From assembly GCF_003095655.1 (NCBI RefSeq), contig NZ_CP029151.1, positions 3,099,001 through 3,163,000 on the forward strand: a stretch of 64,000 bases of DNA. The letters are read 5' to 3'. The position numbers were made by a program, and so were the translations under genes. A model generated the notes under the pieces. The model was not told the DNA's origin. It made no database searches and saw only the letters and a program-made list of their open reading frames with translations. Position 1 is the first letter of the stretch. Each line of letters begins with the position of its first letter. Shown here piece by piece: positions 50,969 through 62,082 of the stretch. This DNA comes from Dokdonia sp. Dokd-P16 (GTDB lineage Bacteria; Bacteroidota; Bacteroidia; Flavobacteriales; Flavobacteriaceae).

Positions 50969-51829
50969 ATGGCTATGCGTTTCTTTTCTTTTATAGTTGG
51001 TGTGTGCTTTATTATTTCATGTTCTGATACCGATACTACGATTACTACAGATGATGATGTGGTAATTCTTCCAGAAGATCCAGATGTGATTATGCTACCA
51101 GATACTATTGTGTTGCCGGCTGTTGGTGCTAGTTTTGACTGGCAGCTTGATGATGTAACTTCGTCAAATGAATTTGATGCCACAGTAATTGATGTAGATG
51201 CTTTTTCTACATCATCAGCGACGGTGCAACATTTTAAAAATCAAGGTAAAATAGTGATCGCTTATCTTTCTGTGGGTTCTGTAGAGAATTTCCGCCCAGA
51301 TGCAAATCAGTTTCCCGCAGCAGTCATTGGTAATGTATATAATGGTTTTGAAGATGAAAATTGGCTAGACATTCGCAATATTGACGCGCTGGCGCCCATT
51401 TTGCGTGCTCGATTTGATATGATACAGGCTAAAGGTTTTGATGGTATTGAACCAGATAATATGAACGGTTATCAGAATAATACTGGTTTCTCGCTCACTC
51501 AGACAGATGCCATTGTATTCTCTAGATGGCTTATTAATGAAGCACACGCTAGAAATTTACATATAGGACAGAAAAACGCAGAAGAACTGGTGCCTAATCT
51601 GGTAGATGAATTTGACTGGATTCTTACAGAAGATGCCTATGCAGATAATTTTCAAGTCGAGGCACTACCCTACATTATTGCTGGTAAAGCGGTCTTTGTC
51701 ACAGAGTATAAAGATGCCATGTCCCAATCCCAATTCTTAAACACCGTATGCCCAGATGCTGCGGCAAATCAATATAGCGCTATTTATAAAAATCGTGATC
51801 TTACAGACCCTGTGATTAGTTGTAACTAG
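50969..51829 (+). CDS. GH114 endo-alpha-1,4-polygalactosaminidase-like lipoprotein
   Basis: 286 residues. Lipobox in FIISCSDTD (Cys17), then an Asp/Thr/Pro-rich linker. Residues ~45-280 match GH114/TM1410-type hydrolases: DWQLDD, VIDVDAFSTSSATVQHFKNQGKIVIAYLSVGSVENFRP, LDIRN, and the acidic site KGFDGIEPDNMNGY. This is the fold of the PelA hydrolase domain, which cuts partially deacetylated N-acetylgalactosamine polymers. It is separated by 253 bases from pelF, so it may have its own control. Two start Met are possible (50969 and 50975). Confidence 0.88.
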   Translation: MAMRFFSFIVGVCFIISCSDTDTTITTDDDVVILPEDPDVIMLPDTIVLPAVGASFDWQLDDVTSSNEFDATVIDVDAFSTSSATVQHFKNQGKIVIAYLSVGSVENFRPDANQFPAAVIGNVYNGFEDENWLDIRNIDALAPILRARFDMIQAKGFDGIEPDNMNGYQNNTGFSLTQTDAIVFSRWLINEAHARNLHIGQKNAEELVPNLVDEFDWILTEDAYADNFQVEALPYIIAGKAVFVTEYKDAMSQSQFLNTVCPDAAANQYSAIYKNRDLTDPVISCN

Positions 51830-52082
51830 GGGTCATTATCTGCGTTATAATAAAGCCTGTATAGTACTGCAATAGCCTTGGTTTGTAGGTTCAATTTTTC
51901 GCGAAAGCGTTCTATATTAAGAAAAACACCACTTTAAAACAGTTTTTAGGGAGATTATACTGTAAATGAGTCGCTTGTGATGCATGATATGTTTGTAAAT
52001 TAAAGCACTTTTATCGCATTACTAGTATTTACATTGATATTAATGACCTATTATTGCGTTCTCACATGTGTATGAGTTATTT

Positions 52083-53612
52083 ATGAATACTACCAGTGTA
52101 ATGCTTGTTCTTGAAGGAACCTATCCCTATAATGGTGGAGGTGTTTCTACCTGGGCGCATATTTTATGTAATCGTGTGCATGGGGTGGATTTTACCTTGT
52201 ATGCCATTAATGCCAACTTTGAAAAGGAACTCAAATATGAGCTAAGTCCTAATGTGGTGCGCACCATCCAGGTGCCATTATGGACGCCAGATGAGCCGCA
52301 TGACTACATGAGTTATGGGGAGGAATATTACAAGATTATAGCCAAAAAAGAAGGAACTTCAAATAAGCAAATTCGCACCCTATTTATTCCCCTATTTACA
52401 GATTTACTTAATTTTATATATACAGATAATGCTCCTATAGCATCACTAGATACTATATTTTATGGGCTATGGCGCTATTTTGAAGATTATGATTATAAGG
52501 AAACTATGCGCAGCATGGCAGTATGGGATGCATATTGTGAAGCCATAGATACTTACAGTAGCACGAGCCGCAACCCTACTGCTTCCCTCCTAGATCTTAC
52601 GGTGGGCATGCGATGGATCTATCGTTTTTTGATTCCGCTTTCTATTGTAGACGTGCCTAAGGTGGAGGTTGCTCATCTCACCCTCAGTGGCTTTGCGATT
52701 ATTCCAGCTCTCATCGCACATTATAAATATGGAACGGCAATCATGCTTACAGAGCATGGCGTTTTTATAAGAGAGCGACTACTTGCCATAAACGCCTCCG
52801 AATATCCATTTTTTCTTAAAAATTTACTCATTCGCTTTTCTGAGAGTATCGCCCGCTTGTCTTATTATAAGTCAGAAAAAATAATCTCTGTAAATCTATT
52901 TAATAAAAGGTGGGAAGTGCTTTATGGAGCAGATCCTGCAAAGATTGAGGTTATTTATAACGGGATTGATGAGGAGTTATTTACACCACGTCCTAAACCA
53001 GCACACCTTGTAAATGTGCCTACAGTAGTTGCACTTGCTCGTATTTTTGACCTCAAGGACGTGCTTACCATGATACGCACCTGTGCACTGGTACAACAAG
53101 AAATCCCAGAGGTGCAATTTCTCGTATATGGTGATGATACTGCGGTGCCGTCATATACTAGTGAATGTCTGGCACTCATAGACCAACTCCATATGGGTGA
53201 TCATTTTAAATTAATGGGGCCAAAAAGTAACCCTCACCTACTCTTTGCCGAAGGTGATATCTCTATTCTCACGTCTATTTCTGAGGGATTTCCCTATACG
53301 GTGATAGAATCTATGGGATGTGGTGTCCCTGTGGTAGCAACAGATGTGGGCGGTGTGAGCGAAGCGCTAGATGAGCATACCGGTTTTGTATGTAAGCCTA
53401 AAGATGCGCAAGCCCTTGCAGAGAAGGTGATCTTACTGCTACAAGATAAAACGCTGCGCACTGCTATGGGAGAGCGCTGCCGCCAGCGTGTGCTTGATCA
53501 TTTTACACTTGACACTTTTATAGGTTTATATGAGGACGCTTACGCGAAAACTGCCCAGCGGTTTACTAATAGCCCTACATTTATACCTCGTAACACGATC
53601 TCAAAAGTTTAA
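52083..53612 (+). CDS. pelF: PelF-like GT4 glycosyltransferase
   Basis: 509 residues from the ATG at 52083, close to the ~507 of P. aeruginosa PelF; a GTG at 52068 is less likely. N-terminal block LVLEGTYPYNGGGVSTWAHILCNRV is PelF-specific, as is HLTLSGFAIIPALIAHYKYGTAIMLTEHGVFIRERLL. The GT4 C-terminal E-x7-E motif is in EGFPYTVIESMGCGVPVVATDVGG. PelF uses UDP-sugar (UDP-GlcNAc in P. aeruginosa) to polymerise Pel in the cytoplasm. It begins a gene block with overlaps or gaps of 2 bases or less. Confidence 0.93.
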   Translation: MNTTSVMLVLEGTYPYNGGGVSTWAHILCNRVHGVDFTLYAINANFEKELKYELSPNVVRTIQVPLWTPDEPHDYMSYGEEYYKIIAKKEGTSNKQIRTLFIPLFTDLLNFIYTDNAPIASLDTIFYGLWRYFEDYDYKETMRSMAVWDAYCEAIDTYSSTSRNPTASLLDLTVGMRWIYRFLIPLSIVDVPKVEVAHLTLSGFAIIPALIAHYKYGTAIMLTEHGVFIRERLLAINASEYPFFLKNLLIRFSESIARLSYYKSEKIISVNLFNKRWEVLYGADPAKIEVIYNGIDEELFTPRPKPAHLVNVPTVVALARIFDLKDVLTMIRTCALVQQEIPEVQFLVYGDDTAVPSYTSECLALIDQLHMGDHFKLMGPKSNPHLLFAEGDISILTSISEGFPYTVIESMGCGVPVVATDVGGVSEALDEHTGFVCKPKDAQALAEKVILLLQDKTLRTAMGERCRQRVLDHFTLDTFIGLYEDAYAKTAQRFTNSPTFIPRNTISKV

Positions 53613-55220
53613 ATGCAGCATCACAACGCAATACAAGAACTTACGGCTGCTATTATAGCTCGCAACGGTAAACCCGTAAACGAGCTTGTAGTACGAGCAA
53701 CCATTGAGTCGCTAGGGATACGCGATATAGATGTGCTTCCCTCCTATGGTCTTGAAAATATCGCACAGCTTGCCGCTCATATTTTTAAGGAACTAGATGC
53801 ACCTATGTATTTGCGATCCAAAAATAAAAGCGAACTCCAAGCAGAGAGTAAGCATGAAAAGCGTGTGCTTTATTCTAGCTATGCCTCTGTGCAGCTTTCT
53901 CATTTTGTAAAAGATTATGCTACGGGCATGTTCCACCTGCTACCTGTGTTTTTACAAGTGGCAGCCATTATACTTTGTGGCTTCTCATTATGGGCTTTTG
54001 TAGGCTTTAATGAGTTACAAGCCACCGCAGTCGTGCTAGGTGTTATTATCGGACTTGTTGCAACAGGTGGTTTTGTACAAGCCATAGGGAAACAGGTTTC
54101 CTTTTACTGGTATCATGATGATTTTATCATGACTAGACAGGCTATTGTAAACTTGCTTAGTACGGCTATAAAAACACTTTTTGGCACGTTTGTGTTTATA
54201 GGTGTTACTAATTTTTTCTTGCACTTATATCCTTATCAATTTGTGCTCATCACCTTTGTGTATGCCTTTTTAATAGGAGTCCTTTTACTAGTTCTCGCGC
54301 CTTTATATACCATCAAGCAGCGCTGGATGATCTCTATTGCCATAGGCGTAGGAACGTTACTAGCACTAGGTTTACATTATTATACAAGCATACACGTATA
54401 TCTCGTACACTGGATTGGGATCAGTGTTGCTATTATAATAAGTGCCATTCACTTACACTTTTTCTTAAAGCGCATTATTGCTACAAAGCAAAAGGTTACA
54501 AATGCTCCGCCAGTAATGATGCTCTCTGCCTATCGCAACTTTAGCTACTTTTTTTATGGGACATTTATTTACATGTTCATATTTACAGATCGTATTATAG
54601 CCTGGTCCTCTAGTGTAGGTCGCAATCTACCGTATATCATCTATTATGAGAAGGATTATGAGATAGGTATGGATCTTGCCATAGTAGTCTTCTTTTTACT
54701 CGCAGGAGTGCTAGAATATAGTATTGCCTCTTTTAGTAGATGGTTAGATATAGGGCAGCGCAGTCTTACATATAAAGACCGCATAGCCTTTGGCTCACAC
54801 ATGATCACGCTTTATACAAGACATCTCGCAATACTGGGCGTTACAACTCTTTTAATAGCAGGATTACTCTATGCGATTGTTACACAGCCCTGGGGATATC
54901 AAGCGGCATTTAATGAGGCTATTACTGCACTAAGCATACGAGTGCTTATTATAGGTGGTTTTGGCTATCTGTTTCTTACTATTGGTATGCTTAATGTATT
55001 ATACCTGTATACCCTTAACAGACATAAAAAACCAGTAGTTTACATTACAATTGCCTTTTTTATTAACCTCATTGTAGGCCTTTTGGCCAGTAGATTATTA
55101 AGTTATGAGTATGCATCGCTGGGCATGCTTGCGGGAGCTATTGTATTTATGATCTATACCACTCGCGAGGTAGTACAGTTTTTTAAACAACTAGGATATC
55201 ACTATTATGCGGCTTATTAA
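53613..55220 (+). CDS. pelG: PelG-like polytopic membrane protein
   Basis: 535 residues starting at the base after pelF. About twelve hydrophobic helices, and the C-terminal IYTTREVVQFFKQLGYHYYAAY resembles the PelG end. P. aeruginosa PelG is 456 residues; the present protein has an extra ~80-residue soluble N-terminus (GKPVNELVVRATIESLGIRDIDVLPSYGLENIAQLAAHIFKEL). PelG is a MOP-type inner-membrane subunit paired with PelF for polymer export. It overlaps the next gene by 14 bases. Confidence 0.85.
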   Translation: MQHHNAIQELTAAIIARNGKPVNELVVRATIESLGIRDIDVLPSYGLENIAQLAAHIFKELDAPMYLRSKNKSELQAESKHEKRVLYSSYASVQLSHFVKDYATGMFHLLPVFLQVAAIILCGFSLWAFVGFNELQATAVVLGVIIGLVATGGFVQAIGKQVSFYWYHDDFIMTRQAIVNLLSTAIKTLFGTFVFIGVTNFFLHLYPYQFVLITFVYAFLIGVLLLVLAPLYTIKQRWMISIAIGVGTLLALGLHYYTSIHVYLVHWIGISVAIIISAIHLHFFLKRIIATKQKVTNAPPVMMLSAYRNFSYFFYGTFIYMFIFTDRIIAWSSSVGRNLPYIIYYEKDYEIGMDLAIVVFFLLAGVLEYSIASFSRWLDIGQRSLTYKDRIAFGSHMITLYTRHLAILGVTTLLIAGLLYAIVTQPWGYQAAFNEAITALSIRVLIIGGFGYLFLTIGMLNVLYLYTLNRHKKPVVYITIAFFINLIVGLLASRLLSYEYASLGMLAGAIVFMIYTTREVVQFFKQLGYHYYAAY

Positions 55221-56016
55221 TTCTATCATTGTTATTATCGTTCTGGCTATGACACAGCAAGCGCTCACGCAGCAATCTTATGAGAAAATTCTCTTTTGTT
55301 ATGGAGATTTATATCCAGAAAAAACAACTGGATATGACCTCGTGGTGCTAGAACCCATACATTTCTCTGCTCAAGATGTCACAGTATTTAAAAATAATAA
55401 CAAGAAAGTTCTCGCATATATTAGTCTAGGAGAGGTTAACGAAGCAGCTCGTCACTATGAAGCGCTTAAAGGATTTACCCTAGGAAAAAATGATATTTGG
55501 AACAGCCATGTACTTGATATTGCTAACCAAGAAACGCGTGCTGCACTTCATACACTCATCGCGGCACATATAGAAGGTAAGGGCTTTGACGGTATTTTTA
55601 TAGATAATATTGACAACTATACCCAGTGGGGACCTACACCAAAAAAATTGGCTGCTCTCGTGGAGTTTTTATCTGAGGTAAAGTTACGCTTTCGCGAAAG
55701 CGTGATACTACAAAATGCAGGATTACTCATTATGCAAGACACCGCGCCTTACATAGATGCAGTAGCTGTAGAATCTGTAGCAACCGATTATAATTTTAGC
55801 ACAAACCACTACCGATTGAGAGCTAAAAAAGATTTTAAATCAAGGCTTGACAATGTGCTAACCGTTAAAAAACAGTATCAAAAACCAATTCTTTTAATAG
55901 AATATGCAAATTCAAAAAAGTTAACAAAGGAAGTTACAAAACGACTCGCTGGTTGTAAACTTCCCTTTGTAGTGGCACAAATAGATTTACAAACCGTCCC
56001 AAAAAGTTATGAGTAA
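55207..56016 (+). CDS. PelA-hydrolase-like (GH114/TM1410-type) secreted protein
   Basis: 269 residues with a signal peptide (cleavage near Ala-Leu-Thr-Gln). Domain blocks: KILFCYGDLYPEKTTGYDLVVLEP, KKVLAYISLGEVNE, ... VLDIANQETRAALHTLIAAHIEGKGFDGIFIDNIDNYTQW, and AVAVESVATDYNF. The acidic DGIFIDNID site matches TM1410-like hydrolases. It is a second hydrolase of the same general fold as the one at 50,969, inside the pel block. It contains palindrome copy 14 in frame (LRFRESV). It overlaps pelG by 14 and the next gene by 8 bases. Confidence 0.87.
   Translation: MRLINSIIVIIVLAMTQQALTQQSYEKILFCYGDLYPEKTTGYDLVVLEPIHFSAQDVTVFKNNNKKVLAYISLGEVNEAARHYEALKGFTLGKNDIWNSHVLDIANQETRAALHTLIAAHIEGKGFDGIFIDNIDNYTQWGPTPKKLAALVEFLSEVKLRFRESVILQNAGLLIMQDTAPYIDAVAVESVATDYNFSTNHYRLRAKKDFKSRLDNVLTVKKQYQKPILLIEYANSKKLTKEVTKRLAGCKLPFVVAQIDLQTVPKSYE
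55686..55703. repeat. TTTCGCGAAA palindrome copy 14, inside the PelA-like hydrolase gene
   Basis: A perfect 18-bp palindrome, read in frame as RFRES. Confidence 0.95.
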
Positions 56017-58033
56017 CTTATTGATAATGCGTGATTTATTCTTTACACCATCTATGGTGTACGGACCGTTGCGTATTATTTTACTTGTAATTTTTATATT
56101 TCTAGTAAACAAACTAGTTTCTAAAAAAAGCTCAAACCAGTCTGGGCTCAATTATTTTATACCGCGTTACGTTGCTTTTGTAAGTGTTATTGTGCTTCTA
56201 AGCCTTGCTCTCACAACAATTAACGCTTATGATGCGTTCACAACACTCGCCATATTATTAGTTTGTGTTGTTATTATATTCTTAAATCTCAATGGCAAGA
56301 GTGCGATATCTAAACAGCTCATTAAAATAAGACGACGCACCATATTATACACGATACGTAACCTAGAGCAAGGTAAAGACCTCATAAGTACGATTAACTT
56401 TAAGAAAACCCAACAAGAAAATGACACCGATGATCTAGAGGTACGAAAAACAGATTACTTGTGGCAGATGGGTATTGTGGTAGTAATCGCGGTGCTTACG
56501 TATCTGTCTAGGTATTACTTCTTCAATTTTGACACATTTGCCCTCTCCGACTTATGGTATGAAGATTTTGCCAAAATCAAAAATCTTACTAACCAGCAGT
56601 GGTTCAACTCAGAAGGTGTACTCATGGGAGAATATGCTTTGATACAGCTATACGGCAGTTTTACAAGCATAAGTGATGTGATTGCTCTGCAAACGTTTGG
56701 ATTGCTAGAGAATGCAGTATTAGGCGTTGTCATTTATTGGACAATCTCACAGTGTACAAATACTAATTATGTACCAGGATTAGTAGCTGCTTTTGTGTTT
56801 ATGTTTTTTTATGGATTCTTACCGCTCAATATTAATTTAATGACGCAGCATAAGCCTACATTCTTAGCGCTTTCACTAGCGTTACCGGTGTTTGTTTATT
56901 TGTGTAAGCCTAAAACATTACGTAAAACACCGTCTTCCTACTTTTTATGGATGCTGTGCTTTTTTTGTGGTATTGCCTTTATAGACTTCTTTACCACAAT
57001 CTGGGTATTGCCTGTGTTCTTTATAGCTGCACTTATAACCGTTACAAGTGATAAAAGAAAATACTACCTACGTGCACTTGTAGCATATGTGCTCGCACTC
57101 TTACTATTTACCACAGTGTACTGGATATCATTTAATTTTGATCTAGATGCAATGGCGCTTTTCATAAAGGCAAATACGTACTCGCTTAAAGCATATACAT
57201 ATGTCCCACAATTAATAGTATCTCTTAGTGAACTACTGGGATATTATCAAGTGATAAGCGTATTACTGTTACTCATAGCTATTATAACAAATACATTTAT
57301 AAAGAGATCTTTAAAAAATATAATTGCCTTATTAGCAATGTTTTGTATCTTCTTTTGCTTACCATTACTTCAAATAGAAATTATAGATACAGATCTTCTA
57401 TATCAAGTGATAGCTGTTTGTATTCCACTGTTTATAGGAGTGAGTGTTTACCTTATAATCACGATTATTAATAGCATGCTACCACCTATTAAGACACCTA
57501 TTTATGGACGTATTATTGCTACTGTTATTCCGCTTATAATCGCTTATGCAGCGTTTCAGAAATCTACTTTACAAAATATTCCACCGCGCAATTTGACCAG
57601 TGAGTATATTATGGAGGCTTATGATGCGCTAGATGATGAGCTTCTTCCCTATTCATTTACCGTTGTAAATACAGGCATGGCTTTAGAGATGAGTAAAGAC
57701 CATCATTTCTTTATGACCTATGATGATTTTACCACTTCCTACGAGCAAGCAGATGCATTGTACGTAACAAATAGAAATAACAAGTCCTTCTTTAAAAAGT
57801 ATCCAGAAGCAACATTATCTAAAAGTATGTTTGTCTTTGTATATGAAGAAAAAGCACAGTTAAGCAAATCAGATAGGCTTAAAACAAACCAGCAACAGGA
57901 AGTAAGCGAAGTCATCACTAGACTCCAAGATAAAGGTAGAGTTGTGCGTGTTTTTGTAAAAAAACCATTACTCACAGTTTACGAGATTGTAAACGAACCA
58001 AAGGCTACCAAAATAAACGATTTGCTTTTTTAA
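56009..58033 (+). CDS. Polytopic membrane protein of the Pel-like cluster, family unknown
   Basis: 674 residues, about thirteen hydrophobic helices in two blocks. A basic loop with KKTQQENDTDDLEVRK follows the first helices. A possible extracytoplasmic loop is RYYFFNFDTFALSDLWYEDFAKIKNLTNQQWF. The C-terminal ~135 residues (SEYIMEAYDALDDELLPYSF... to the end) are soluble. The helices and the Asp-rich loop recall GT-C membrane glycosyltransferases, but no motif is certain. It occupies the place of PelD/PelE in other clusters; it has no GGDEF domain and no TPR region. Confidence 0.6.
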   Translation: MSNLLIMRDLFFTPSMVYGPLRIILLVIFIFLVNKLVSKKSSNQSGLNYFIPRYVAFVSVIVLLSLALTTINAYDAFTTLAILLVCVVIIFLNLNGKSAISKQLIKIRRRTILYTIRNLEQGKDLISTINFKKTQQENDTDDLEVRKTDYLWQMGIVVVIAVLTYLSRYYFFNFDTFALSDLWYEDFAKIKNLTNQQWFNSEGVLMGEYALIQLYGSFTSISDVIALQTFGLLENAVLGVVIYWTISQCTNTNYVPGLVAAFVFMFFYGFLPLNINLMTQHKPTFLALSLALPVFVYLCKPKTLRKTPSSYFLWMLCFFCGIAFIDFFTTIWVLPVFFIAALITVTSDKRKYYLRALVAYVLALLLFTTVYWISFNFDLDAMALFIKANTYSLKAYTYVPQLIVSLSELLGYYQVISVLLLLIAIITNTFIKRSLKNIIALLAMFCIFFCLPLLQIEIIDTDLLYQVIAVCIPLFIGVSVYLIITIINSMLPPIKTPIYGRIIATVIPLIIAYAAFQKSTLQNIPPRNLTSEYIMEAYDALDDELLPYSFTVVNTGMALEMSKDHHFFMTYDDFTTSYEQADALYVTNRNNKSFFKKYPEATLSKSMFVFVYEEKAQLSKSDRLKTNQQQEVSEVITRLQDKGRVVRVFVKKPLLTVYEIVNEPKATKINDLLF

Positions 58034-58035
58034 TT

Positions 58036-61000
58036 ATGCAACGCACACAACCACATATATCAGTCATAGCTATAGTATCTATCATACTTTTCGGTTTATT
58101 TTTGGGCTGTGAGAGAGATCTAGATGACATCAAAGAGCAGAATAGTCGTACCATTTATGACACGGAAAGCACGAGTCCTCTTGTAGCGTTTATAAGTGAT
58201 GCAAAAGACTATAAAAACCAGAGTTATCAATCTCATATACGTAAAGCAGCTACCTATGCAAAGCTTCCCTATGCACAGTTAGATAAAGAAGATTTTAATA
58301 ACGAGCTTCTCATTGATCCATCTACTCGGGTACTCGTAATCACAAACACAAAGGGATTTAACAATAAAGCTTTTGAACGTATTGTTTCTTTTGTCGCAAA
58401 TGGAGGTACTTTGTTTTTACCTACGATTACCACAAATAACGAATATGCCTTCCTGGCAGGACTTATTCCTACCACAAACTTTACAAGTGATCCTAAGGCA
58501 AGTGGATATTCCTTTCAAACAAACGTGCTACCTGGACTTCAAGGGACACGCTTTAATGATGATAACCAACACGGGGCATTACTACGAGAGAATTTTAGGG
58601 ATGACATCAAGATACTAGCTACTGCGGCTACTAATAGTGAGATTCCAATGGTTTTCCAAAGACCATTAGGTAAAGGAACTGTGATCGCGATAAATAGTAA
58701 TCAAGATGGTAAAAAAGAAGATAGAGGCTTATATTTTGCAGCTATACTTTCAGGTTTAGAGCATGTACCCTACCCTATTGCAAATGTGAGCACCATTTTT
58801 ATAGATGACTTTCCTGCGCCTACGTATGAGACCGTGCGATTACCTATTTCAACAGAATTTAATCTCTCTGAGACTGCATTTTATCATGATGTCTGGTGGC
58901 CAGACATGCAACGACTTGCTAAAGAAGAAAACCTTGTTTATACAGCGGTAGCTTGTTTTGACTACAGAAACTTAGATACGCCTCCCTTCTTATTTTCAGA
59001 GTGGGATAAATCTATGGTTAAGAAGGATGGAACACTGAAAGTTTCTGGTGATGTTGCCGTAAGTAATGTATTAAGAGCTGGAGACGAATTTGGACTTCAT
59101 GGTTATAATCATATCTCCCTGGTAGAAGATGAATGGGATAACCCAGATTTTATGGAAACAGCACTACTCGCTGTACAAAAAAAATGGAAAGCTAGTAACT
59201 TTGGAGCTTTGCCTAAAACCTATGTACCTCCATCTAACCGCATAGATAGTTTGGGTTTTGCAGCCTTACAAAGTGGTATGCCTTCTGTAATTTATAATAG
59301 TAGCTTGTACTTAGGCTCTTTTAAAGAAGGCGGTAATCGTGAGTTTGATACAGAGCCTTACAATGACCACTTTTTTAACTTTCCAAGAATTAGTAGTGGT
59401 TATGTGGTAGATGAGAATATACAGTTTGATTTACAATCGCACTACTTATATACAGGTATCTGGTCACACTTTATTCACCCAGATGATGTGTATCAAATCC
59501 CTAATCCAGTAAACATAAGCAGCCGCGGAAATTATGCGTATCGTAATTCTGAAGGATTAAGATGGAAAGCTACCTATAACGGTAAGCAAGGAATGTTTCC
59601 TGCTTTTAGTACTTTCTTAAAACGTATAAGAAAACAATACCCGATGATGCGTTCTTTAAAAGCGCAAGATGCCGCTAGTTACACTAAGGAGTGGCGTTAC
59701 ACAGAGTACACACATACTCAAGAGAATGCCGTGTATAAAGTTGGGTCTATAGAGGAAACAGATCAAGATGAGTTTTTCTGGTTTTCTTACAGTCGTGCAA
59801 ATAACAATGCAAGCTTTGAGGCCATATTAAAAAACGAGGGATACACGTTTACAAAAACACCTTTTCTAGAAGGAAATTTATATAACATCACTACCAGCAT
59901 GCCCTCCATACGTTCTGTATTGCCTCGTAAACAAGAGATGACTCCTTCTTTACAAATTATCTTAATAGAGAATTTGATGAAAGATTATGAAAAATATCTT
60001 AATAGAGTTCCCATTTTTAAAGACATAGATGAGGAGGTTGCTTATCTCATTTCTCAAGGTAATATTCAAGAAGCCATTACACTCTTGGAATCTAAAATTG
60101 CTAGTGCCTCTATAATTTCAAAGGAAGATTATATCACTTTATACCAATACTACGGATGGCAAGGTGCTCAAGAAGGTTTTTATGAGTTTTTAGAGCAGCA
60201 ATATGCAAAAGGACAACCTGGACAACTCATTGTTATTTCAAAAATAATAGGTGATGCAAATGATTATCCTAATGATGTGATAAAGAAAACCTGGATGCGC
60301 AGGCAGATTGTGGTGTATCCAAATGATAGCTTACTCAAAGCGAGATACGATAGTTACTTTTCTACACCGCAAGAAATTACAGAAAGTAATAATAGAGCTT
60401 TAGAAGAAGCCTTTCTAGCTGCATCAACTATCAAGGAAAAAACAGCGCTATTACCAGAGCTACTAGCTGCAGATTCTGCTATTGCTACGGTATTTATTAG
60501 TGATCTCGAGCCTTGTGTAGATATAGAAGTACAAAACATTGCCCATCTTATCGCACAAGCACTTGCAGATCAAGGCAACTATGCTAAAGCAATTGCATGG
60601 TCTGCATGTACAGATAAAATAGCTGCTAAGACGCAACAACAATGGCTTCTTAATACAGGAAATTATGAACGCTTAAAGAAGGAAGACTTTAAAGCTTATA
60701 TTTCTTACTTAATCGTAGAGCAACCTGCACTTATTCCTGTAGAACTCATAGATAGTAAACCATGCTCACTAGACTTAACTCCAGAAGAAATTGCGGTAGT
60801 AGCCTACGCCTTTGCAAATCAGAGCTCGTATAGAACTGCTTATAACTGGTCCACTTGTGATGATAATTTTAAAGTGAGTGAGCAATTGCAATGGCTTGCT
60901 GCGATGAAAGCTATAGAAGAGATGGAACTAGTTTTTACCTCCTACATTTCAAAAAATCCAGAAGATAATGCGCTTATTCTCAATATGGCAACTCGTTACA

Positions 61001-62082
61001 GTGAGTTAGGCGAGATCACAAAAGCATGGAAGCTAGCAAGCTCATTGCCAGACTATGAGATAGCAGCTGCGCTCAGAAAGCAGCTTAATGTTGATGTATT
61101 ATATATAACCCCAACACAACAACGAGACTTATTTGACAATTATAGTACGTTCTTTTATTCAGAAACGATAGATACATTAAATAAACAACTTAGAACCACC
61201 ACCAATGACTTTATAACTAGTAGCTCAAATGTGCTAGCAGACCGCCTAGAACCTACTTCTATTAGTAATCGCATAGGTTATGGTCATTATGATACCCGAG
61301 GAAATAAACATGTATTTGGTATTACTCAAAATAGACCTTTTGAACTACAACTCACGACACAACAACCCGCAAATACACCTATTAGTTTATTTGGCGCTTA
61401 TTACTCTTTAACTTCAAGGAGCAAGTATTTGAAGCCTACATATACAGGAGAGTTAGGTATAGAAGTAAGCGATACAGGAAGTCTTTTTTATCATGCAGAG
61501 GCGGGAATCTCTTACAGTAAAGATTCTTTATTTAGTAGTGTCCAACTGTCATTTCAACCAGCCATAACTGCTCCAGCTTATAATCTTGATATTTATAGAG
61601 CCCAGTTAAGTGTTTATGAAGAGTATAAAATTAATAAGAACTGGCAGCTCGTCGGGGCTTTGGAAGGCAACTATTATACCGACGGCGTAGTAGATGGGTT
61701 ACTTAACTCCTCGCTTAGATATCAATACTCATTTTCAAAAAAGAACATGCTCATCCCGTACATTGAAGGAGCAGGTATGCTAGGTACGGCAGATAATCGT
61801 TTGGGATTTCCGTACTGGACAATTAAGGAACGATTATACGGAGGTGCTGGCCTAGCATACAGCTATGGTTATACGCCACAAGGGCTTTCTGTGCGTATGG
61901 ATGCTGCACAGTTTTTTGACACTTTTTCAGATAGTTTCCAGCGATATAGAGCTAATGTTTCTGCTCCATTATACGGCTCGCTATTGATTAACTTTAATGC
62001 AGAATTCTACACTTTAGAGAATTTTTATAGCAATAATTTCACGCTAGGAATGACGTATTACTTTAAGAATAAGAAAAACTAA
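58036..62082 (+). CDS. Fused deacetylase (DUF2194)-TPR-outer-membrane barrel lipoprotein
   Basis: 1348 residues starting two bases after the previous stop. Lipobox LFLGC (Cys25). Residues ~45-530 look like DUF2194/PelA-type deacetylase: FIDDFP (Asp257, Asp258), HGYNH (His355, His359) and YVPPSNRID (~397-404), which line up with the metal-binding motifs of CE4/PelA enzymes. Residues ~670-1070 are helical repeats of TPR type, as in PelB. Residues ~1090-1348 are beta-strand-rich and end in GMTYYFKNKKN, consistent with an outer-membrane barrel. One protein could thus deacetylate the polymer, guide it and export it. Confidence 0.8.
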   Translation: MQRTQPHISVIAIVSIILFGLFLGCERDLDDIKEQNSRTIYDTESTSPLVAFISDAKDYKNQSYQSHIRKAATYAKLPYAQLDKEDFNNELLIDPSTRVLVITNTKGFNNKAFERIVSFVANGGTLFLPTITTNNEYAFLAGLIPTTNFTSDPKASGYSFQTNVLPGLQGTRFNDDNQHGALLRENFRDDIKILATAATNSEIPMVFQRPLGKGTVIAINSNQDGKKEDRGLYFAAILSGLEHVPYPIANVSTIFIDDFPAPTYETVRLPISTEFNLSETAFYHDVWWPDMQRLAKEENLVYTAVACFDYRNLDTPPFLFSEWDKSMVKKDGTLKVSGDVAVSNVLRAGDEFGLHGYNHISLVEDEWDNPDFMETALLAVQKKWKASNFGALPKTYVPPSNRIDSLGFAALQSGMPSVIYNSSLYLGSFKEGGNREFDTEPYNDHFFNFPRISSGYVVDENIQFDLQSHYLYTGIWSHFIHPDDVYQIPNPVNISSRGNYAYRNSEGLRWKATYNGKQGMFPAFSTFLKRIRKQYPMMRSLKAQDAASYTKEWRYTEYTHTQENAVYKVGSIEETDQDEFFWFSYSRANNNASFEAILKNEGYTFTKTPFLEGNLYNITTSMPSIRSVLPRKQEMTPSLQIILIENLMKDYEKYLNRVPIFKDIDEEVAYLISQGNIQEAITLLESKIASASIISKEDYITLYQYYGWQGAQEGFYEFLEQQYAKGQPGQLIVISKIIGDANDYPNDVIKKTWMRRQIVVYPNDSLLKARYDSYFSTPQEITESNNRALEEAFLAASTIKEKTALLPELLAADSAIATVFISDLEPCVDIEVQNIAHLIAQALADQGNYAKAIAWSACTDKIAAKTQQQWLLNTGNYERLKKEDFKAYISYLIVEQPALIPVELIDSKPCSLDLTPEEIAVVAYAFANQSSYRTAYNWSTCDDNFKVSEQLQWLAAMKAIEEMELVFTSYISKNPEDNALILNMATRYSELGEITKAWKLASSLPDYEIAAALRKQLNVDVLYITPTQQRDLFDNYSTFFYSETIDTLNKQLRTTTNDFITSSSNVLADRLEPTSISNRIGYGHYDTRGNKHVFGITQNRPFELQLTTQQPANTPISLFGAYYSLTSRSKYLKPTYTGELGIEVSDTGSLFYHAEAGISYSKDSLFSSVQLSFQPAITAPAYNLDIYRAQLSVYEEYKINKNWQLVGALEGNYYTDGVVDGLLNSSLRYQYSFSKKNMLIPYIEGAGMLGTADNRLGFPYWTIKERLYGGAGLAYSYGYTPQGLSVRMDAAQFFDTFSDSFQRYRANVSAPLYGSLLINFNAEFYTLENFYSNNFTLGMTYYFKNKKN

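Follow-up and report, generated by a model that had tools for sequence, protein, structure and literature searches.

Two described arrangements of pel genes come closest to the locus reported here: pelABCDEFG of Proteobacteria (e.g. Azonexus plasmid; PMC12022489) and pelDEADAFG of Gram-positives (Bacillus cereus; PMC7112168, PMC13254593). In the window, by which we mean the whole 64,000-nucleotide stretch of Dokdonia sp. Dokd-P16 that was analysed (contig NZ_CP029151.1, positions 3,099,001 to 3,163,000), we examined an array made of pelF, a pelG-like gene, the gene of a PelA-type (GH166) hydrolase (GHb), that of a membrane protein with a predicted glycosyltransferase C (GT-C) fold and a giant gene (1,348 amino acids). 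Taken as a whole, this core operon probably encodes a Bacteroidota-specific Pel-like exopolysaccharide machine that works independently of cyclic di-GMP (c-di-GMP).

With the B. cereus type the locus shares PelF, a PelG-type exporter, a PelADA-type deacetylase (CBM114-CE26) and a hydrolase encoded as a separate gene. It departs from that type in that no PelD was found and no PelE recognised, PelADA is fused to a solenoid and a barrel, and the GT-C-fold protein is added. With the proteobacterial type it has in common the PelF family, a GH166 hydrolase and a deacetylase that works with an exporter made of tetratricopeptide repeats (TPR) and a barrel. Here, however, the two enzymes of PelA come apart: the hydrolase has a gene to itself and the deacetylase, of PelADA type, is fused to the exporter. 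No PelD was found, the locus holds no PelC, and the PelG-like protein is very divergent.

In the parts of the Pel literature available to us we found no description of this cluster; supplementary genome lists and subscription papers lay outside that scope and could include Bacteroidota. The main texts of PMC7112194, PMC7112168 (Pel diversity) and PMC12022489, as accessible, contain no word starting with 'Bacteroid', and PMC12022489 counts full-length PelA in 16 phyla, not all of which are named in the text we saw.

A conserved gene order in Bacteroidota

The order PelF-PelG-GHb-GT-C-giant, on one strand, recurs in 71 of 80 named loci. Scanning named genomes with the alignment of the giant gave 505 pattern matches, 471 of which encode a relative (a tblastn match, which does not prove the fusion); the 80 loci are the best of these 471, ranked by similarity to the window. 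Nearly all 80 are titled Flavobacteriaceae or Flavobacteriales, which the ranking favours. The remaining nine loci start inside the array, where the contig ends.

In a sample of 392 Bacteroidota genomes, PelF (DUF3492), the GT-C-fold protein and the giant (E≤6.2e-57) were each found in 30 genomes, the same 30 for all three, and every PelF-bearing genome of the sample has this cluster type. While 32 genomes lay over the DUF2194 cut-off, two (G430 and G251) were left out: their matches were weak (2e-8 and 1e-7), the frames spanned 246 and 696 amino acids, and their loci (L066, L067) were without the operon. A further 19 genomes below the cut-off were left out as well. The initial annotation had proposed a third type of pel arrangement adapted to Bacteroidetes; these counts bear out a third architecture, so far in Bacteroidota. 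Within the window's own genus, DUF2194 was found in none of 17 genomes, several of them incomplete, and gain or loss of the cluster within the genus is therefore possible.

Individual loci vary. Two contigs of metagenome-assembled genomes, titled Bifidobacterium breve (L144) and Sphingobacterium thalpophilum (L112), carry flavobacterial-type clusters; at least L144 is probably mis-binned. Further pelG and GT-C fragments are present in L051, and the giant of L141 is in two frames. In L059 pelG is shortened and the hydrolase frame split. The genome with the usual cluster L042 has a second, variant one (L057).

Deacetylase and exporter in one chain

At its start the giant reads LFLGC, a lipoprotein-like signal, and its residues 56-555 match B. 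cereus PelADA (9zau; scores in Table 1). In PelADA, D262 is the base, D263, H350, H354 and H488 are placed at the zinc, and R458 and D491 are also named, according to PMC13254593. By alignment these seven correspond, in the same order, to D257, D258, H355, H359, H481, R451 and D484 of the giant, all kept in 103 of 103 distinct rows of at least 1,200 amino acids; in this and the other residue counts, shorter fragments were dropped and three genomes found in both the named and unnamed sets were counted once. The CE26 (PelADA) signature of D-D, HxxxH, a late His and an Arg is thus present in the giant. Canonical PelA was rejected as its homologue: phmmer found only 9zau, not PelA.

An AlphaFold2 (AF2) model of the C-terminal 778 amino acids has a predicted local distance difference test score (pLDDT) of 86.9 and a predicted template modelling score (pTM) of 0.54, and consists of a helical solenoid and 16 strands. 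Its top five Foldseek matches are BcsC, PelB and 4y25, the last of which we take to be PgaA. In VIA-align, the barrel with the last helices scored Z 23.4 against 4y25, 22.3 against BcsC and 21.8 against PelB (set from 23.4 to 21.7), with the next other barrel at 15.0. The model thereby places this part among PelB/BcsC/PgaA-like exopolysaccharide exporters, and the giant, recognised from the start as a fusion, is predicted to be a PelADA-type deacetylase and an exporter of this kind in one chain, the exporter being present but fused. Such a chain suits known biology, since PelA and PelB of Pseudomonas aeruginosa act as a complex with an effect on deacetylation, as reported in PMC12022489. A periplasmic polymer-modifying enzyme is likewise fused to an outer-membrane exporter in the BcsZ-BcsC protein reported in Zymomonas (PMC7112194), which belongs to a cellulose system and carries a hydrolase, whereas the enzyme here is a deacetylase.

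A PelA-type hydrolase and an accessory GH114 protein

Two PelA-hydrolase-like proteins had been proposed at the locus. For GHb this holds, as its PDB matches at E≤0.01 are PelA chains only: 9cgy (E 1.9e-17), 5tcb and 5tsy. Its D133 and E189 align with D160 and E218 of P. aeruginosa PelA in the register derived from the PDB-match alignment; this catalytic pair is named in PMC12022489. Both residues of GHb are kept in 101 of 101 distinct rows (at least 240 amino acids and above 90 bits).

The other protein, GHa, turned out differently: it lies outside the operon, its best PDB matches are the GH114 enzyme 6oj1/6ojb, presumably Ega3 of Aspergillus, and no PelA chain was matched at E≤0.01. A relative of GHa was found in 1 of 58 other genomes among relatives (E 5e-7). 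At other loci a partial GH114 domain belongs to another lipoprotein-like gene; among those scanned, seven lie upstream of pelF (two come from one genome) and one follows the giant. The operon thus often has a GH114-type neighbour, which is not fixed.

Ahead of the operon in L036 (13352-15910) are a regulator of the iron-dependent-repressor type, a ZIP transporter and a partial-GH114-domain protein; the families were tested in L036 alone, and genes of similar size occur in L043, L080 and others. As a guess, such a metal link would suit a zinc deacetylase.

PelF and the PelG-like exporter

Both PelF and PelG had been considered recognisable. PelF scores above the cut-off of the curated NCBI model NF038011 and carries DUF3492 (PF11997). 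The PelG assignment proved weaker than claimed: the match to PF16933, below the curated cut-off (Table 1), covers residues 111-532, with residue 111 at profile position 34. At E≤1, 8 of 14 aligned family members match this model, the best at 2e-9. A profile comparison with seven canonical PelGs (annotated or placed as PelG) is colinear over 398 columns and weak (E 0.036, probability 1.4%), and no match to the Azonexus and Cetobacterium PelGs was obtained with the family profile at E≤0.1. The protein is likely a distant PelG-like exporter, judging from these alignments. About 60 of its roughly 80 extra N-terminal residues (window 53613-53900) match a protein encoded beside pelF in a Streptomyces locus (E 7e-7), for which a Pfam scan gave no match. 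Searches of the PDB with the profiles of the PelG-like and GT-C-fold proteins returned nothing; comparison by hhalign with one Azonexus sequence each for PelA, PelB and PelG yielded no useful result, one-sequence profiles being too thin.

Of the 33 rows in a PelF tree, 22 are from Bacteroidota and make up one group (support 98/96), which adjoins Deinococcus, Thermus and Streptomyces and is separated by a 100/100 branch from Proteobacteria and Fusobacteriota. No Bacillus PelF is among the rows; the Fusobacteriota, one of which has DUF2194 next to pelFG, are not part of the Bacteroidota clade. PelD is annotated in four of the six proteobacterial loci of the tree, and in neither of the Sulfitobacter and Cereibacter stretches. 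The synthase lineage thus appears to differ from the proteobacterial one, while the hydrolase and the deacetylase are of Pel type by similarity; the operon looks like a mosaic.

The nearest PelF relatives in the tree, in the loci of Deinococcus sp. QL22, Thermus brockianus and Streptomyces californicus, are accompanied by GH114-type genes and by a protein at the pelG position with the common N-terminal stretch, clear only in Streptomyces. These loci differ from ours in their Agd3-type deacetylase domains and, in two of the three, in sugar-nucleotide genes; profiles of the giant and the GT-C-fold protein found no match in these three loci. With their pelF-like, Agd3-type (weak in Streptomyces) and GH114-type genes, these plasmid loci (L152, L153, L156) make a possible bacterial galactosaminogalactan-like locus in their own right. 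In loci of families f38, f27 and f45, a second, shorter DUF3492 glycosyltransferase is encoded near pelF (L037:3708-4895 and equivalents), upstream in f38 and f27.

No PelD found and no recognised c-di-GMP input

As the initial annotation had it, PelD and PelC are not found. The PelD_GGDEF model (PF16963), which would miss a PelD without GGDEF as in streptococci, matched in 0 of 31 cluster genomes (the own genome and 30 others) and in 3 of 3 control plasmid records. For PelC we used the LpoB family (PF13036), since in one of the pel loci compared the gene in the place of PelC is annotated as LpoB; the family has no match in the own genome. The packed array at 52068-62082 holds no further frame, and no PelE was seen among its genes, although no PelE model search was made.

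GGDEF domains occur in 3 of the 31 cluster genomes versus 189 of the 392 sampled Bacteroidota, and PilZ in none of the 18 cluster genomes tested. A profile search of the own genome found no GGDEF or PilZ domain. These profile results make c-di-GMP control as in P. aeruginosa unlikely in this genome, and equally unlikely the separate c-di-GMP receptor that had been suggested as an object of search. Loss of c-di-GMP input has a precedent, because streptococci have a PelD without GGDEF, as stated in PMC7112168; total loss of PelD we did not find described in the Pel literature as far as it was accessible.

In f38 and f27 loci, an HD-domain protein, soluble by hydropathy, is encoded between pelG and the hydrolase gene (L037:8115-9737 and equivalents); such a protein also accompanies the operon at L035:10088-11638. 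It is HD-GYP-like, with GYP kept in L035 and GTP, GSP, GMP or GAP at this place in six others read. In genomes mostly without GGDEF, it is a candidate regulator.

A membrane protein with a predicted GT-C fold

The membrane protein at 56009-58033 had been described as unassigned, with 13 helices. It is a membrane protein indeed, with 12 hydrophobic segments by hydropathy, and no Pfam or NCBIfam model matched it above cut-off; a fold can now be assigned. The AF2 model, built from 30 sequences (pLDDT 83.5, pTM 0.85), has extra N-terminal helices, followed within residues 141-664 by a GT-C core and a C-terminal alpha/beta domain. Foldseek ranks 1-11 against the PDB are all GT-C (STT3, PglB, DPY19, ALG12, ALG9, AftD and ArnT), with a best E of 3.9e-5 and TM-scores of 0.28-0.40. 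In VIA-align, yeast STT3 comes first with Z 19.9 (root-mean-square deviation 8.3, 430 aligned), rows 1-45 are GT-C (Z 19.9-10.6; rows such as PIG-U counted as GT-C on our assumption) and the first other fold follows at Z 5.2, families not listed being not excluded by that. On the model, then, the protein has a GT-C fold. We know of no GT-C-fold protein in any other Pel locus.

Among 104 distinct rows (above 600 amino acids, two distant rows added by hand), each of the residues R168, W183, D460, D462, H566 and D582 is kept in 98 to 103. D175, which the model helices place just after the first core helix, is an aspartate in 79 of 79 distinct flavobacterial-type rows but in 1 of 25 others; we assume this to be the position where GT-C enzymes carry an acidic residue (first periplasmic loop). 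From the model, the protein may act as a glycosyltransferase. A relation to a 716-residue Deinococcus protein was rejected: profile comparisons found none, and that protein carries Agd3-type domains.

Proposed pathway and alternatives

We propose the following pathway. In the cytoplasm, PelF would polymerise UDP-N-acetylgalactosamine (UDP-GalNAc), and the chain would cross the inner membrane by way of the PelG-like protein. Beside them, the GT-C-fold protein would use a polyprenyl-phosphate donor to add a sugar on the periplasmic side, or be a scaffold as PelD/PelE are elsewhere. The giant would deacetylate the chain moving along its solenoid and then release it via its own barrel, GHb would trim chains in the periplasm, and GHa may release chains outside. 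The identity of the polymer, like the GT-C activity, is something we infer. In its boldest form, the proposal would be a Pel system without c-di-GMP in which a periplasmic, polyprenyl-phosphate-fed GT-C transferase decorates or caps the GalNAc chain before the deacetylase-exporter, giving a polymer chemically distinct from Pel; to this we lend only limited credence.

Several observations weigh against a c-di-GMP-independent Pel-like machine. The position of PelF next to Deinococcus, Thermus and Streptomyces, and not with Proteobacteria or Fusobacteriota, may mean that the polymer is not Pel, and the PelG-like protein falls under the curated cut-off with a weak profile comparison. The fold matches of the giant's C-terminal part do not tell PelB from BcsC or 4y25, and in the model its solenoid and barrel are not firmly placed relative to each other, as the pTM indicates. 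An LpoB-family match occurs in 8 of 15 cluster genomes, never within the cluster, so that a PelC elsewhere is possible there. Absence of GGDEF is a trait of whole families and counts as few events: in the 392-genome sample the domain occurs in no genome of f1, to which the window belongs, and in none of f22, whereas one f38 genome has it (E 9.6e-4) and f27 and f45 do as well. The absence is therefore not independent evidence; and three cluster genomes do carry GGDEF. Lastly, D175 of the GT-C-fold protein is an aspartate in just 1 of 25 rows outside the flavobacterial types.

Some of these points lead to other explanations. A sister PelF lineage might make something other than Pel, be it a galactosaminogalactan-like polymer or another mixed one. 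This would agree with the PelF tree, with Agd3-type deacetylase domains that score above the cut-off at the Deinococcus and Thermus loci (weakly matched in Streptomyces), with the resemblance of GHa to 6oj1 and with the N-terminal stretch shared between the PelG-like protein and the Streptomyces pelF neighbour. We find it unlikely, however: the deacetylase matches PelADA, GHb matches only PelA chains, and the tree output itself warns of long branches (Thermus 3.25) and uneven composition. That the GT-C-fold protein is a non-catalytic scaffold, holding PelF and the exporter in place of PelD/PelE, is also doubtful, if somewhat easier to entertain. PIG-U has the GT-C fold and no known activity, and glycosylphosphatidylinositol (GPI) transamidase chains are among the VIA-align matches (rows 31 and 34); the failure to find PelD and the lack of conservation of D175 outside flavobacterial types point the same way, but the near-complete retention of the other six residues suggests a kept active or binding site. 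The two hydrolases of GH114/GH166 type speak for a locus that breaks down or scavenges amino-sugar polymers and does not produce one. This is highly improbable, as a single operon holds PelF, the PelG-like exporter and the barrel of an exopolysaccharide exporter, and none of the eight proteins scanned with profile models is of SusC or SusD type.

If the Pel-like machine is real, marine and freshwater flavobacteria and other Bacteroidota of several families would have a recognisable matrix polysaccharide system. Deacetylation and export in one chain would make the PelA-PelB coupling model directly testable, a Pel-type machine without recognised PelD would raise the question of what switches synthesis on, and a GT-C-fold protein would have been brought into a synthase-dependent exopolysaccharide system.

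Organisation of the locus

The initial annotation and the open reading frame list agree on the positions of six forward-strand frames in 50969-62082. Five of them are packed in an operon-like manner, their junctions ranging from a 14 bp overlap to a 2 bp gap: the pelG-like gene starts on the nucleotide after the end of pelF and overlaps the GHb gene by 14 bp, the GHb and GT-C-fold genes overlap by 8 bp, and 2 bp lie between the latter and the giant gene. The GHa gene is 238 bp upstream, outside this tight array. For pelF, an in-frame ATG at 52083 is also a likely start.

Table 1 Features of the Pel-like locus (window coordinates) and the evidence for each.
Feature	Position	Strand	Evidence
GHa: GH114 lipoprotein, galactosaminidase-like, accessory	50969..51829	+	PF03537 222.5 bits; PDB 6oj1 E 1.8e-39; lipobox read in sequence
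pelF: GT4/DUF3492 glycosyltransferase, putative polymerase	52068..53612	+	NF038011 179.2 bits (cut-off 100); PF11997 186.6 bits; tree
pelG-like: putative inner-membrane exporter, ~80 extra N-terminal residues	53613..55220	+	PF16933 14.4 bits (cut-off 29)
GHb: secreted PelA-type GH166 hydrolase domain as own gene	55207..56016	+	PDB 9cgy, 5tcb, 5tsy only; D133/E189
Integral membrane protein, predicted GT-C fold	56009..58033	+	AF2 pLDDT 83.5, pTM 0.85; Foldseek; VIA-align
Giant: predicted fusion lipoprotein, PelADA-like deacetylase + helical solenoid + 16-strand outer-membrane barrel	58036..62082	+	PF09960 236.3 bits; 9zau E 3.2e-38
CBM114-CE26-like part of giant, aa 56-555	58201..59700	+	alignment to 9zau; seven catalytic/zinc residues
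Helical repeat (TPR-like) solenoid of giant, aa ~637-1056	59944..61203	+	model secondary structure; TPR chains match family profile
16-strand exporter barrel of giant, aa ~1059-1342	61210..62061	+	strand count in model; VIA-align Z

Recent transfer of the cluster was rejected on composition, its GC content of 38% versus 36% for the window giving no signal. Elsewhere in the window, the segment 46600-48800 has a low GC content (28% versus 36%) and its first gene reads like a zinc-ribbon protein; this segment is possibly foreign.

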